Shown in pieces: positions 7,854 to 60,620 of a DNA stretch of 64,000 nucleotides. The notes under the pieces were generated by a model. That model was not told the DNA's origin and did no database searches. It saw only the letters and a list, made by a program, of their open reading frames with translations. The stretch is from Cherax quadricarinatus (lineage: Eukaryota > Arthropoda > Malacostraca > Decapoda > Parastacidae), in contig NC_091326.1 in assembly GCF_038502225.1 (NCBI RefSeq), positions 670,383 through 734,382 on the forward strand. The letters are read 5' to 3'. The position numbers and the translations under genes were made by a program. Within the stretch, counting starts at the first letter, position 1, and each line of letters opens with the position of its first letter.

Positions 7854-8226
7854 GTTATGTTGATGGTAGAATTACCGACAGTATATTAGATAAATGGACA
7901 CAAGTGCAACTAATGTGACATTTTATTGTAGCAACATTTTGCTCTCCAGGAGCTTTGTCAAACCCATTACAAACAATACATGGACACAGAGAGTATAAGG
8001 TGCAAAGCATAATATAATCATTGTAGGTTGTGGTAGTAGTTGTAGTACTATTACTACCACAGATACTACTGCTATTACCTACAATGATTGTATTATGTTT
8101 TGCAACTCACACTATACCTATATATACCCTGTGTCCTTGTTTGTAATGTCTTAACAAAGCTCCTGCAGAGTGAAATGTTGCTACAATAAAAATATTAATT
8201 TAGTTGCACTTGTGTCTTTATATCAA
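7854..8226. mobile_element. Fold-back element, copy 1 (GAAACGTT family), TSD 14 bp
   Basis: The outer arms GGACACAAGTGCAACTAATG (about 7897) and its inverse near 8200-8220 pair, as do the inner GCTCTCCAGGAGCTTTGTCA and GACATTACAAAC blocks. Flanks ACACAACTTTAGAT (7840-7853) and ACACAACCTTAGAT (8227-8240) are a 14-bp TSD with one mismatch. The core reads AGTGAAATGTTG then AATAAA. No protein is encoded. Confidence 0.85.
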
Positions 8227-15156: not shown

Positions 15157-16130
15157 TTAATGAAAATGGCACCAGGCTGTCATCTACTGTAGGGAGAATA
15201 AATTAGTTAATTTTTTGCACAATAGATGGCACTAAAAATTGAAAATGGCACTTGGATGCCATCTATTATTGTAATTATTTACTAAATCTAGTTCAGTTTT
15301 TGCATAATAGATGGTGCTTTAAGTTAATGAAAATGGGAAGACAAAGGGTAGACTAAACTAAATATTTTTTTAGTTCACTTTTTGCTCAATAGATGGCGAA
15401 AAAAAAAATTGAAAATGGGAAGATTAGACAAAATATTTTTAGTTCATAATTCTTACAATAGATGGCAGTCAAGTGCCATTTCCATTAGTAATTTTCAGCG
15501 CCATCTATTGTGCAAAAAATAAACTAAAAATATTTTCTTTAGTCTCCCCTAGTTTATCTTCCCATTTTTTATTTTTTTTTCGCCATCTATTGAGCAAAAA
15601 GTGAACTAAAAAAAAATTTAGTTTAGTCTACCCTACTTTATCTTCCCATTTTCTATTTTTTTTTGCCATCTAATGAGCAAAAAGTGAACTAAAAAAATAT
15701 TTAGTTTAATCTACCATTTATCTTCCCATTTTCATTAACTTACAGTGCCATCTATTATGCAGAAACTGAACTAGATTTAGTAAATAATTACATCAGGCCT
15801 GGTGGCTAAAGCTCCCGCTTCACACACGGAGGGCCCGGGTTCGATTCCCAGCGGGTGGAAACATTTCGACACGTTTCCTTACACCTGTTGTCCTGTTCAC
15901 CTAGCAGCAAATAGGTACCTGGGTGTTAGTCGACTGGTGTGGGTCGCATCCTGGGGGACAAGATTAAGGACCCCAATGGAAATAAGTTAGACAGTCCTCG
16001 ATGACGCACTGACTTTCTTGGGTTATCCTGGGTGGCTAACCTTCCGGGGTTAAAAATCCGAACAAAATCTCTCTCTAATAGATGGCAACCTAGTGCCATT
16101 TTCATTAACTTTGTGCCATTATCAAAACTA
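15157..16130. repeat. Large palindrome of CCATCTATT repeats, right arm split by a SINE
   Basis: TGTAATTATTTACTAAATCTAG (from 15270) is inverted at 15765-15791, and GCTCAATAGATGGCG/CGCCATCTATTGAGC blocks repeat inward. Several copies of ATAGATGGC flank the centre near 15470. The outermost left block (AATAGATGGCACTAAAAATTG...) finds its partner only beyond the SINE, at 16076-16110. A fold-back transposon is likely; no transposase is present. Confidence 0.8.
15791..16074 (+). mobile_element. tRNA-derived SINE (copy a)
   Basis: The head GGCCTGGTGGCTAAAGC plus GGGTTCGATTCCC match pol III A- and B-box patterns of a tRNA gene. The body has GGTACCTGGGTGTTAGTCGA and the tail ends GGGGTTAAAAATCCGAAC. 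Close copies lie at 32490 and 57811 (both reversed). The tRNA fold is incomplete, so this is not a functional tRNA gene. Confidence 0.88.
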
Positions 16131-16464: not shown

Positions 16465-16565
16465 TATTCTCATCCTGGGCCATTTATTTCCTTCTACCAA
16501 CCCCATCACTCATAAAAACCACAATATTTTAGTCACAGACATGCAAAATCTGTAAGAGAGGCAGC

Positions 16566-17314
16566 CATGTTGTAAATGAATGGTATACAATACCATGTTG
16601 TACATGAATGGTATACAATACCATGTTGTACATGAATGGTATACAATACCATGTTGTAAATGAATGGTATACAATACCATGTTGTACATGAATGGTATAC
16701 AATACCATATTGTGCATGAATGGTATACAATACCATGTTGTACATGAATGGTATACAATACCATATTGTACATGAATGGTATACAATACCATGTTGTACA
16801 TGAATGGTATACAATACCATGTTGTACATGAATGGTATACAACACCATGTTGTACATGAATGGTATACAATACCATGTTGTAAATAAATGGTATACAATA
16901 CCATGTTGTACATGAATGGTATACAATACCATGTTGTAAATGAATGGTATACAATACCATGTTGTACATGAATGGTATACAATACCATATTGTACATGAA
17001 TGGTATACAATACCATGTTGTACATGAATGGTATACAATACCATGTTGTACATGAATGGTATACAATACCATGTTGTACATGAATGGTATACAATACCAT
17101 ATTGTACATGAATGGTATACAATACCATGTTGTACATGAATGGTATACAATACCATGTTGTACATGAATGGTATACAATACCATGTTGTACATGAATGGT
17201 ATACAACACCATGTTGTACATGAATGGTATACAATACCATGTTGTACATGAATGGTATACAATACCATGTTGTACATGAATGGTATACAATACCATGTTG
17301 TACATGAATGGTAT
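16566..17314. repeat. 28-bp satellite array, about 26 copies
   Basis: Unit ATGGTATACAATACCATGTTGTACATGA-like (28 bp) with rare variants (GTAAATGA, ATATTGT, ACACC). Each unit holds two perfect small hairpins: ATGGTAT-ACA-ATACCAT and CATGT-TGT-ACATG. The array lacks stop codons on the minus strand, giving three overlapping long but meaningless frames. It ends exactly where a family A LINE fragment begins. Confidence 0.95.
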
Positions 17315-17864
17315 TTACCTGGAGTTTACCTGGAGAGAGTTTCGGGGGTCAACGCCCCTGCGGCCCGGTCTGTGACCAAGCCTCCTGGTGGATCAGCCCC
17401 TGATCAACCAGGCTGTTGCTGCTGGCTGCACGCAAACCAACGTACGAGCCACAGCCCGGCTGGTCAGGAACCGACTTTAGGTGCTTGTCCAGTGCCAGCT
17501 TGAAGACTGCCAGGGGTCTGTTGGTAATCCCCCTTATGTATGCTGGGAGGCAGTTGAACAGTCTCGGGCCCCTGACACTTATTGTATGGTCTCTTAACGT
17601 GCTAGTGAGACCTCTGCTTTTCATTGGGGGGATGTTGCATCGTCTGCCAAGTCTTTTGCTTTCGTAGTGAGTGATTTTCGTGTGCAAGTTCGGTACTAGT
17701 CCCTCTAGGATTTTCCAGGTGTATATAATCATGTATCTCTCCCGCCTGCGTTCCAGGGAATACAGATTTAGGAACCTCAAGCGCTCCCAGTAATTGAGGT
17801 GTTTTATCTCCGTTATGCGCGCCGTTAAGGTTCTCTGCACATTTTCTAAGTCGGCAATTTCACC
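17315..17864 (-). pseudogene. Family A (CR1/L2-like) LINE, 3' fragment: RT C-terminal region
   Basis: Reading the minus strand, an open frame encodes the region after the RT thumb (ITEIKHLNYWERLRFLNLYS, RRRERYMIIYTWKILEGLVP) to the conserved end (GCGSYVGLRAASSNSLVDQG). It aligns along its whole length with the complete ORFs at 23627-25312 and 54979-56667 with few changes. The 3' end has the family's TTTACCTGGAG repeat and abuts the 28-bp satellite. It is 5'-truncated at the GEIADLENVQ segment, where AT-rich unrelated sequence begins. Confidence 0.85.
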
Positions 17865-18024: not shown

Positions 18025-18230
18025 GAAGAAAATAAATGGTATAAAATACCGACAATATGGAAACAAACACATATGCAGTTTAATGTGATCCTTTATTGAC
18101 AATGTTTCACCCACACAGTGGGCTTTTTCAAGTCACACACAGATCTGTTTGTGACTTGAAAAAGCCCACTGTGTGGGTGAAACGTTGTCAATAAAGGATC
18201 ACATTAAACTGCATATGTATTTATGTTTCC
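18025..18230. mobile_element. Fold-back element, copy 2, TSD 9 bp
   Basis: TGAATATAC occurs at 18016-18024 and 18231-18239. Arms CATATGCAGTTTAATGTGATC and its inverse at 18196-18216 pair almost perfectly, as do CCCACACAGTGGGC and GCCCACTGTGTGGG. The right arm reads TTGAAAAAGCCCACTGTGTG then GGTGAAACGTTGTCAATAAAG. The left edge carries the family tail GGTATAAAATACCGACA. Confidence 0.88.
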
Positions 18231-26449: not shown

Positions 26450-26645
26450 ATAAAGTTGGTAGATTTACCAACAATACGTAAAGTAAAAGGACACAAGTGC
26501 AACTAATGTGACATTTTACTGTGGCAACGTTTCGCTCTCCAAGAGCTTTATCAAGCCGTTACAACGGCTTGATAAAGCTTCTGCAGAGCGAAACGTTGCC
26601 ACAATAAAATGTCACATTAGTTGCACTTGTGTCCTTTTACTTTAT
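26450..26645. mobile_element. Fold-back element, copy 3, TSD 14 bp (1 mismatch)
   Basis: ATGTATACCTTGTA (26436-26449) and ATGTACACCTTGTA (26646-26659) flank it. The arms around 26485-26560 and 26563-26640 are almost perfect inverse copies meeting at AAGCCGTTACAACGGCTT. Right arm core: CTTGATAAAGCTTCTGCAGAGC then GAAACGTTGCCACAATAAAA. The left edge GGTAGATTTACCAACAATAC matches the tail of the other copies. Confidence 0.9.
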
Positions 26646-26952: not shown

Positions 26953-27086
26953 GTTAAGTAAATGGACACAGTTGCAACTGATGTAACATTTTATTGTAGC
27001 AACACTTGGCTCCTGGAGAGGTCAACATTGCAACAATAAATGTCACTTTAGTTGCAACTGTCTATTCACCTAACATTTTGTCAGAA
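26953..27086. mobile_element. Fold-back element, copy 4 (shortened), TSD 10 bp
   Basis: ATTATACAAT flanks at 26943-26952 and 27087-27096. Arms ATGGACACAGTTGCAACTGATG and TAGTTGCAACTGTCTATTCA are inverse, as are TTTATTGTAGCAACA and ATTGCAACAATAAA. The central CTGATGAAG-type loop is mostly lost; GGAGAGGTC remains. Confidence 0.85.
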
Positions 27087-29552: not shown

Positions 29553-30010
29553 ACCCATAGTCAGAGGCCGGGCTTCAAACATATTTTACTGTACAGCAAT
29601 AAAGGAATGGAACAGACTGCCTGTACATGTCCAAGCCAGTCATATAATTATAATTATAATCAAAAAGAAGCGCTAAGCCACAAGGGCAATACAGCGCTGC
29701 AGGGTAGGGAAGGAAGCGAGGGTATTGGATGGCAGAAGGGAGGAGGGATGATCAGTAGGTTACAGAAAACAGCGGGGCAGGAGATAGTACGGGGGTAGAG
29801 GGTAGCAAGAGATTGAAGTAGAAAGCGCTGAAGGTATCAGAATTTGTGAAGAAAGTCAGTTGTTGTCAAAAAGTCAATGAGAGAGTCCGGATGAAAGATG
29901 GGTCCATCAGCAAGAAGGGAAGGTAAAGAGAGAGCAGCGGAGTGTAGACGACGACGGAGGTAAATTCTGCGTGCTCGTTGATAAAGTGGGCAGTCCAACA
30001 GGATGTGGCT

Positions 30011-30297
30011 GTTAGGTAAGACAAATATGCAACAGTTAGGTATCTTTATTTCGAAACGTTTCGCCTACACAGTAGGCTTCTTCAGTTGAGTACAGAAAAG
30101 CTGATAGAAGCAGAAGAGACTTGAAGACGATGATGGGTGATGGACTGATTACATCGTCTCTTCTGCTTCTATCAGCTTTTCTGTACTCGACTGAAGAAGC
30201 CTACTGTGTAGGCGAAACGTTTCGAAATAAAGATACCTAACTGTTGCATATGTGTCTTACCTAACAACCTGTCGGTATTTTATACCATTTTAACATT
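30011..30297. mobile_element. Fold-back element, copy 5 (best preserved), TSD 8-12 bp
   Basis: CAGGATGTGGCT (29999-30010) and CAGAATGTGGCT (30298-30309) flank it. Arms of more than 100 bp are nearly perfect inverses: GTTAGGTAAGACAAATATGC ... and its complement ending 30262. The right arm has CGACTGAAGAAGCCTACTG, TGTAGGCGAAACGTTTCG, AAATAAAGATACC and TGTTGCATATGTGTCTTACC, then the tail TGTCGGTATTTTATACC. It interrupts the 3' UTR/RNase H end of the I-like LINE. Confidence 0.93.
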
Positions 30298-30675
30298 CAG
30301 AATGTGGCTGACTGATAATGGAGCTTGGCAATTCTCACAGAGAGGAGCAGGGTGCCTCTCCATGAGATATCCATGAGTAAGACGAGTATGGCCAATGCGA
30401 AGACGGGAGAGAGTAGTCTCCCAACCTCGACACTGGTGATAAGAAGACGGCCAGTAACCTAAACTCAGTTTAATAGATTGAAGTTTGTTACCGAGCATAG
30501 TAGACCAACGTTGTTGCCAACGGGTGTGAAGGTGGGAAGATATTGCAGCAAAATAGTCCGTAAATGGAATACCTCTATATGAAACTGGTAGGTCGTGTAC
30601 TGCTGACCGCGCAGCAGTGTCTGCCTGTTCATTGCCCTGTACGTCAACATGACCAGGGACCCAACAAAAAAACAA
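30298..30675 (-). pseudogene. I-like LINE RNase H, C-terminal half and tail domain
   Basis: The frame starts with FFCWVPGHVDVQGNEQADTAAR, which holds the catalytic-site histidine (PGH) and last aspartate (EQAD) of RNase H type I. A cysteine/histidine tail follows (TRLTHGYLMERHPAPLCENC and CQAPLSVSHIL), typical of I/Jockey-group elements. The original C terminus is cut at 30297 by fold-back copy 5, and the frame is shifted relative to the first RNase H half near 30650. RNase H would remove the RNA strand during element copying. Confidence 0.85.
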
Positions 30676-32489: not shown

Positions 32490-32792
32490 TTCGTTCGGAT
32501 TTTTAACCCCGGAGGGTTAGCCACCCAGGATAACCCAAGAAAGTCAGTGCGTCATCGAGGACTGTCTAACTTATTTCCATTGGGGTCCTTAATCTTGTCC
32601 CCCAGGATGCGACCCACACCAGTCGACTAACACCCAGGTACCTATTTGCTGCTAGGTGAACAGGACAACAGGTGTAAGGAAACGTGTCAAATGTTTCCAC
32701 CCGCCGGGAATCGAACCCGGGCCCTCCGTGTGTGAAGCGGGAGCTTTAGCCACCAGACCACCGGGCCACTAGCCAGACCACCGGGCCACTAG
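32490..32792 (-). mobile_element. tRNA-derived SINE (copy b) inside the I-like LINE
   Basis: Reverse complement of copy a: head GGCCCGGTGGTCTGGTGGCT, B box GGGTTCGATTCCC, tail GGGTTAAAAATCCGAACG. The 20-bp head CTAGTGGCCCGGTGGTCTGG is present twice in tandem (32753-32772 and 32773-32792). Confidence 0.9.
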
Positions 32793-39300: not shown

Positions 39301-39832
39301 GCGCGTGCAGGATTGAAAGCCAGGAAATGTAAGATCACAATCACTGAAATGTTACCTGTACTCAAGGTCAAATCGGAACTAGCGTTCCTGATATTGCAAT
39401 GTTTTTCTTTATTTTTTAATTTTTTTTTCTATTGCATTGTTGAAGATGAATAAATGTAGGATCTGTTGCCTATACTCAAAGTGGTATGTGAGTATCTTTC
39501 CTCAATATTGCTACAATTATAAATTTTATCATTAATAAAGTTGAGAAGTATTCTCCTGTTCGGTTTATGGCCCTTAAATGTTCTCATTGCTAAACATTAG
39601 TTAGTGGTCATGCAGTAGTGATGTAACTAGAGTTTACTACCCCCCTCCCATCCCCCTGAACTTGGATTTCATATCAGGTGCAGGAACTGATCAACACACA
39701 GCAGCATTTTGTTGGGTTATTATTGGTTTAGGTGATTGGTCGTAGAAGATTTGTGCCACAATATGTCACATTAGTGTCGTTTGTGTCTATTTACCCAACA
39801 TTTTCTTGGATTTAATTGCCACGACGGATAGT
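39301..39832. other. No gene; half of a fold-back relic near 39745-39825
   Basis: TTTGTGCCACAATATGTCAC then ATTAGTGTCGTTTGTGTCTA and ACATTTTCTTGGATTTAATT resemble one arm and the tail of the fold-back family. The rest is unrecognised. Confidence 0.45.
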
Positions 39833-57810: not shown

Positions 57811-58086
57811 CGGATTTTTAACCCCGGGGGGTTAGCCACCCAGGATAACCCATGAAAGTCAGTGCGTCATCGAGGACTGTCTAACTTATTTCCATTGGGG
57901 TCCTTAATCTTGTCCCCCAGGATGCGACCCACACCAGTCGACTAACACCCAGGTACCTATTTGCTGCTAGGTGAACAGGACAACAGGTGTAAGGAAACGT
58001 GTCGAAATGTTTCTACCCGCCGGGAATCGAACCCGGGCCCTCCGTGTGTGAAGCGGGAGCTTTAGCCACCAGGCCACCGGGCCACC
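57811..58086 (-). mobile_element. tRNA-derived SINE (copy d) fused to the LINE
   Basis: Complete head GGCCCGGTGGCCTGGTGGCT, B box GGGTTCGATTCCC, body TAGGTACCTGGGTGTTAGTC and tail GGGTTAAAAATCCGAAC. Minus-strand order is host LINE, SINE, family A LINE, host LINE, with no host sequence between SINE and LINE. Confidence 0.9.
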
Positions 58087-58460: not shown

Positions 58461-58680
58461 GGTAATCAGTCCCTCAACTTGGAATCGATGTGTTCAGTCG
58501 ATCACATCGATTCCAGGTTGAGGGACTGATTACCTCAAACTTTTCCTCTCCTTACCCATTTCTACTTTGTATTGGACTGATGAAGCCACTGTGTGGCAAA
58601 ACGTTTCTTCAATAAAGATTCCCATGTGTTGCATAAGTGTCTCAATTCTTCAACTTGTCAGTTTTCTAAACCATTCATCA
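58461..58680. mobile_element. Fold-back element, copy 6 (partial arms)
   Basis: GGTAATCAGTCCCTCAACTTGG and CCAGGTTGAGGGACTGATTACC pair around ATCGATGTGTTCAGTCGATCACATCGAT. Then the single right arm core follows: GGACTGATGAAGCCACTGTG, TGGCAAAACGTTTC, TTCAATAAAGATTCCC, GTTGCATAAGTGTC and the tail TTGTCAGTTTTCTAAACC. The left outer arm is absent. Confidence 0.85.
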
Positions 58681-60463: not shown

Positions 60464-60620
60464 CACAAATAACCCGCACATAAAAGAGAGAAGCTTACGA
60501 CGACGTTTCGGTCCGACTTGGTCCAAGTCGGACCGAAACGTCGTCGTAAGCTTCTCTCTTTTATGTGCGGGTTATTTGTGTATCGTTCCAGTCACGGTAT
60601 TGTGCCTTTTTTTGTTATTT
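60464..60620. mobile_element. Fold-back element, copy 7, TSD 13 bp (2 mismatches)
   Basis: AAGGAGCTTGGTA (60451-60463) and AAGAAGTTTGGTA (60621-60633) flank it. Perfect arms: ATAACCCGCACATAAAAGAG, AGAAGCTTACGACGACGTTT, CGGTCCGACTTGG and their inverses meet at TTGGTCCAAG. Core: GGACCGAAACGTCGTCG. It lacks CTGATGA and AATAAA and ends CCAGTCACGGTATTGTGCC, so it is a distinct subfamily. It splits the I-like LINE frame. Confidence 0.88.

Follow-up and report, generated by a model that had tools for sequence, protein, structure and literature searches.

Head-to-head hammerhead-like repeats of Cherax quadricarinatus as probable Penelope-like insertions with one tailed and one untailed end

The window, a 64,000-nt stretch of the Cherax quadricarinatus genome, contains seven related elements, each found where the initial annotation had placed it. 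We refer to them by letter, and to their types by first position: E (7854), C (18025), D (26450), F (26953), A (30011), B (58461) and G (60464). Complete elements consist of two head-to-head copies of one unit, which comprises a hammerhead-like motif, AATAAA and an optional tail. In element A, the left arm (30011..30120, minus strand) has its untailed end outward and carries its hammerhead on the minus strand at 30091-30044. The right arm (30156..30297, plus strand) terminates in a tail at ∼30264-30297, and similarity to the unit extends back to 30139. The hammerhead of this arm (30187..30225, plus strand) consists of stem I, CTGAAGA, an extra A, a 6-bp stem II and GAAACGTT. Domain scans of 49 of the 96 ORFs in the window revealed LINE, RNase H and integrase domains only, and no GIY-YIG. 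The window also holds a repeat with a GAAACGTGTC motif and an adjoining tRNA-like part, at 15877 (minus strand) and at 32679 and 57994 (plus strand). ARAGORN calls tRNA-Val within this repeat at 32696-32768 and 58012-58084 (minus strand), and the repeat looks like a tRNA-derived SINE. A tandem array at 16530-17325 gives weak Rfam miR-384 matches, below the gathering score.

The remaining elements are variations on this layout. Element C (18025..18230) has inverted arms at 18025-18143 (tailed) and 18144-18230, with a TTGAAAA core (U3-A8) at 18156 on the plus strand; at other loci of the genome, Penelope genes have an arm of this type on their 3′ side. Element D (26450..26645) has arms at 26450-26560 (tailed) and 26563-26645, with TTGATAA cores at 26569 (plus) and 26554 (minus). 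Element E (7854..8226) has longer arms, is tailed on the left, and carries decayed cores of U3-A8 type. The arms of F (26953..27086) and G (60464..60620) are joined inside stem II; the right tail is short in F (∼20 nt) and 38 nt long in G. Element B (58461..58680, plus strand) contains one full unit (58500-58680, hammerhead at 58573-58609) and an extra 35-bp inverted piece derived from the 5′ part of the unit. An eighth copy, a decayed single arm of 26450 type (39753..39822, plus strand), has no clear duplication; at its 5′ edge it starts no more than 1 nt from where the hammerhead is predicted to cleave, a lone case. Arm complementarity is 97% over 114 bp in A, 96% over 79 bp in C, 95% over 82 bp in D, 100% over 60 bp in G and 94% over only 35 bp in B. 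It is lower in E and F. The tail, which the initial annotation also described, measures 30–40 bp (less in F) and is found on one arm only, a point that had not been singled out.

Target-site duplications flank six of the seven elements: E (14 bp), C (9 bp), D (15 bp), F (10 bp), A (13 bp) and G (13 bp), with 1, 0, 1, 0, 1 and 2 mismatches, respectively. For element A, the copies at 29999..30011 and 30298..30310 are identical at 12 of 13 positions. Element B has no such duplication. Six duplications had been proposed previously, with lengths of 14, 9, 14, 10, 12 and 13 bp. Among 4000 random placements outside tandem-repeat regions, 8 to 33 reached the observed scores; a looser control that kept these regions was less clear, with 2–14% reaching them. 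When A or G is removed and its flanks are joined with one copy of the duplication, an uninterrupted LINE frame is restored, which strongly indicates that both were inserted. None of the remaining four flank joins tried restored a LINE frame, and the flanks of B contain no continuous one.

In the arms, the order traced back from stem II is stem I, a 7-nt core, an extra A and stem II, followed by GAAACGTT or a sequence close to it. The extra A is present in all nine arms, as had been claimed. This arrangement includes the type I minimal hammerhead core (C3 U4 G5 A6 N7 G8 A9 / GAAA / U16.1 H17, with U3-A8 allowed). No canonical hammerhead with stem III and loop contacts was found in these arms; in place of stem III there is only a loopless ACGT or variant thereof. 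The core had been given as CTGANGA with GAAA, and covariation of the stem and of the core pair supports a hammerhead-like core, but the literal CTGANGA occurs in only two of the seven elements (A and B). In three others (C, D and E) the core reads TTGANAA or is a decayed version, and in F and G truncation of the unit inside stem II leaves that half of the core absent. Pair 3-8 is C3-G8 in A and B and U3-A8 in C, D and E. Window arms with core substitutions are those of E and B and one of C. Copies had been described as deviating; the deviation is real but largely not decay. Treating U at 3 and A at 8 as decay was dropped, because U3-A8 is found in 24 of 24 gene-linked hammerheads (see below) and the rare exchange of C3-G8 for U3-A8 occurs in natural hammerheads, according to the available part of PMC3088659.

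A descriptor combining core, stem and GAAACGTH matched only these elements in the window, against 0.0 matches per Markov-resampled window (60 resamplings). In the nine arms, which come from five elements, 87 of 90 pair cells hold standard pairs, and the covariation score was 0.753 versus 0.325 in shuffles, with none of 500 reaching it; the score was far less when partners were slid. A family-level permutation test gave 2/120. These results uphold the claim that pairing is kept despite sequence change, although two of the five structure measures were not beyond shuffles (pairs changed on both sides, 23/500; pair types, 348/500). Of four stretches folded alone, three form stem I and stem II and B does not; compared with shuffles this is weak, as 5, 6, 40 and 68 of 200 shuffles were as good. 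A covariance model built from the nine arms recovered those nine, the next match being inside F (E 3). A negative result with the Rfam hammerhead models had been set beforehand as refuting the hammerhead reading, and these models gave no hammerhead family match in the window at E up to 10. The models may miss the motif because its stem III has no loop, and in our view the covariation and the gene linkage described below outweigh the missing match. Judged from sequence, then, the elements carry a hammerhead-like motif with predicted ribozyme activity. Exact-pattern scans of viral contigs gave only apparent chance matches: among those listed (at least 120), matches with 4–5 pairs in stem II form no more than 2 in stem I, and L001-L004 read as phage or bacterial-type DNA. 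Model R1, run over 80 of the at least 120 viral matches, gave none below E 0.4.

We searched the genome (3.95 Gb, 7334 contigs) for copies of two families. The 30011 query returned 1961 first-look candidates; the best 40 of the 1961 were scored, and all 40 match both strands. The sample comprised 39 fetched loci plus the window copy. Seven of these 40 lie in longer copies, two repeat another insertion, and 31 are short. A duplication was resolved in 25 of the 31 short copies, with a length of 12–17 bp; it is perfect in 16 of the 25, and 9 mismatches occur in 358 bases overall. Exactly one tail is present in 25 of 25, with one end no more than 10 nt from the arm-end anchor and the other at least 28 nt beyond it. 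The short copies without a resolved duplication are L135, L139, L146, L149, L155 and L158, and L135 may be tailed on both sides. L135 and L146 have a common left flank and an extra piece before the tail motif; their right flanks differ.

All seven longer copies (L172-L178) contain an inverted arm followed by arm, tail, body and arm in direct order. The body is ∼260 nt long, has a TATATAAG TATA-like box and contains stops in all three frames; the 30011 repeat unit is therefore ∼430 bp without a long ORF. ORFs of at least 120 aa listed in four of the longer copies do not cover the body. The idea that the tail leads into a full gene was rejected, since in the seven longer copies it leads into the body and a second arm. 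A duplication of 11–16 bp surrounds the whole structure in six of the seven (L177 runs off the stretch), and in six of six one outer end is tailed and the other untailed. These data support the 30011 type being a non-autonomous retroelement, as the initial annotation proposed.

Arms of this type also bear on the motif itself. Of 66 arms preselected to differ from the window copy by no more than 9 substitutions, 64 keep CTGANGA intact and 54 also retain GAAACGTH. The core, stem II and GAAACGTT are off consensus in 0.9% of cells versus 1.9% for the rest (stem I excluded), and 126 of 5000 permutations were as low. This modest difference fits selection on source copies. The sampled arms continue past the site of hammerhead cleavage, which fits an uncut RNA template; this observation is biased, since the arms were found by that sequence.

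For the 26450 query, the best 40 of 2456 candidates were scored and 30 loci were read. A duplication of 10–18 bp was resolved in 27 of the 30 (11 mismatches in 366 bases), counting that of L236, which is weak (3 mismatches). Exactly one tail was found in 27 of 27, on the left in 13 and on the right in 14. L220 and L238 share the same duplication and represent one insertion, and L209 is the window copy. The duplication was not identified in L213, which is one-tailed, nor at the single locus represented by L216 and L225, where both sides are apparently tailed. All loci were best matches to fold-back queries, so fold-backs are over-represented.

The inner junctions vary in both families. We counted ∼31 distinct end-point pairs in 40 30011-type sequences, with a mean of 1.7 shared bases; the count is approximate, since duplicates were counted and the junctions given for WIN and L161 are unreliable. 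The 26450-type copies have 22 distinct centers in 28 copies. This variation argues that the fold-back is made at insertion rather than inherited. A transcript folding back on itself had been favored as the mobile form, and a non-autonomous unit with both arms, copied as such, would explain why so many fold-backs of near-constant length occur (40 scored of 1961 for 30011; 40 of 2456 for 26450). Yet for the two families sampled such a unit is already contradicted by the varying junctions, and the longer 30011-type copies reveal a source unit that is repeated in direct tandem and has a TATA-like box of its own. A fold-back transcript would also lock the hammerhead in a long hairpin. We consider an inherited fold-back very improbable.

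Another reading is snap-back, in which a single Penelope cDNA would fold on its own 3′ end and prime the second arm. Arm distance is 0.026 within a copy versus 0.046 between copies (0 of 2000 shuffles; 38 of the 40 30011-type sequences), and many 30011-type junctions, with an arm difference of 9–20 nt and 0–4 shared bases, fit a primed loop. Snap-back would give such similarity, which thus counts against an origin of the two arms from two cDNAs. But snap-back predicts equal ends, whereas a tailed end is paired with an untailed one in every copy whose duplication was resolved. Moreover, 15 of 28 26450-type centers have fewer than 3 unpaired middle bases, tight for a hairpin, although chance pairing within a short loop could mimic this. 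The arms also differ at a diagnostic A/C site in 5 of 26 30011-type copies (two of these, L135 and L146, share a flank) and at other diagnostic sites in 6 of 37, 0 of 35 and 3 of 37. Overall, the sampled copies argue against an inherited fold-back and weaken snap-back, which we regard as unlikely. A reading in which the arms come from two random templates was rejected as too strong, given the lower within-copy distance and the disagreement of arms in only some copies.

To find gene-bearing relatives, we searched the genome for GIY-YIG. Of 14,992 candidates, the best 150 were scored, all above the cut-off, and 30 loci (∼3.2 kb) were read. A hammerhead lies on the same strand, 150–450 nt beyond the GIY-YIG domain, at 24 of the 30; it is absent from L179-L183 and L191. 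The gene-linked arm is 88–94% identical to the 18025 arm. Its core, U3-A8 in all 24, reads TTGAAAA or TTGAGAA and ends in GAAACGTT or GAAACGTA, with variation at N7 and H17, as a hammerhead permits. RVT_1 and GIY-YIG were both found in six of six ORFs tested, and in L207 the C-type arm flanks the frame on both sides. Among the best 150 candidates, 27 pairs of GIY-YIG neighbors lie no more than 6 kb apart, and all 27 are head-to-head; gene-bearing copies thus also occur as fold-backs.

These loci bear out the suggestion that Penelope elements drive the family, in that RT and GIY-YIG genes carry the same type of hammerhead arm. The expectation of a Penelope RT with the same arms holds for the 18025 type, but no complete element that bears a gene turned up with arms of the 30011, 58461, 26450 or 60464 type, and none of the 30 loci has a 26450- or 60464-type arm just 3′ of the gene on the same strand. 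Features of Penelope membership found here are an RT and GIY-YIG ORF linked to the arm (18025 type only), tandem or inverted pLTR-like units, a tail and a target-site duplication. In L191 (2763-3168 and 1354-2850, minus strand), a 30011-type body, arm and tail lead directly into an RT and GIY-YIG frame; this single case may be a chimeric insertion, or it may hint at a 30011-type partner that bears a gene. Near a GIY-YIG gene in L182 (1625-2799) and L191 (1-851), 58461-type arms stand in direct tandem with ∼360–380 bp spacing, and from sequence this looks like a second retrozyme-like unit.

The same observations address transposase-driven movement as a MITE or fold-back DNA transposon. Such an element would show long inverted repeats between duplications, but the duplication length is not fixed (10–18 bp in fetched copies), the ends are unequal, and 18025-type arms adjoin RT and GIY-YIG genes. 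This reading is already contradicted, and we give it practically no credence; the earlier argument against a cut-and-paste DNA transposon stands.

We conclude that the elements are probably insertions made by Penelope-like (GIY-YIG) retrotransposition, each containing two cDNAs, one per target strand, from two RNA start sites. The template RNA unit would carry, in order, a type I hammerhead without looped stem III, AATAAA and two neighboring RT start sites. These sites, ∼30 nt apart, would correspond to the untailed and tailed ends. The endonuclease would make a staggered cut at the target, and each target 3′ end would prime its own antisense cDNA, one per start site. Both cDNAs would end at variable points, either within the hammerhead or beyond it. 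Their 3′ ends would then be joined, often at a few shared bases, and the product would be an inverted repeat in head-to-head order that has a single tail and a 9–18 bp duplication. Two joined cDNAs from two start sites would account for the head-to-head order, the duplications, the unequal ends and the variable junctions. The 30011, 58461 and 26450 types may be cross-mobilized.

Thousands of first-look candidates exist for two short families, and the sampled ones can be read at both ends and at the join. These copies suggest a strict rule of one tailed and one untailed end per insertion. We advance tentatively, with marginally more doubt than belief, the stronger proposal that the asymmetry is obligate, the two strands being primed at different RNA sites so that there is always one tail, and that the gene-less hammerhead units (30011 and 58461) are retrozyme-like parasites. 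Some copies whose duplication was not resolved (L135 and L216) look tailed at both ends, which speaks against strictness. If true, obligate asymmetry would suggest a two-sided RNP whose halves are distinct, and the retrozyme-like units would directly link retrozymes to Penelope elements. Minimal U3-A8 hammerheads just downstream of RT and GIY-YIG genes, together with gene-less units bearing Penelope signatures, make that link testable. Penelope elements form a third class of retroelement, and their integration is poorly known.

How do these elements compare with known systems? In the available part of PMC3846280, self-priming is proposed for rotifer elements, there on an antisense template; a tail is described as optional on one of the inverted pLTRs, and the word ‘hammerhead’ is absent from that text. 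Compared with the endonuclease-bearing Penelope elements of Adineta vaga treated there (Pen2a_Av and relatives), most crayfish elements are two arms without an ORF, the duplications are longer (up to 18 bp), and every resolved copy counted has one tail. For Poseidon of Anolis carolinensis (PAc), the accessible portion of PMC11167929 reports a protein that cuts and extends each of the two strands and initiates at two internal sites bounding the tail. The PAc hammerhead is drawn there with stems I and II, and the template is mainly unprocessed RNA. The start sites that PAc used in vitro showed no difference between the strands, whereas the ends differ in every resolved copy here; the PAc work, as far as that portion goes, therefore does not predict strict asymmetry.

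Metazoan non-LTR retrozymes are suspected to be mobilized by Penelope elements, according to the available parts of PMC7229834 and PMC7761336. The units described here resemble them in being short, tandem, non-coding hammerhead units (∼430 bp for the 30011 type, ∼360–380 bp spacing for the 58461 type) with duplications of more than 4 bp. Unlike retrozymes, they lack a looped stem III, as does the minimal Penelope type in those papers, and they bear Penelope signatures, namely an inverted arm and a tail. The natural U3-A8 hammerheads in the seen part of PMC3088659 share the same exchange; the crayfish motifs differ from them in having U3-A8 in all 24 gene-linked copies and an extra A before stem II. 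In the openly licensed literature, we found neither a count or statement of strictness for the one-tail pattern nor a study that focuses on hammerhead Penelope elements of decapods or crayfish. The one-tail pattern is partly known from PMC3846280, as far as its available text goes, and the strict count goes beyond both that account and PAc. The elements are thus of a known, Penelope-like kind, of which this one genome holds several families; their integration pattern is sharper than that in the openly licensed accounts, so far as these were accessible.
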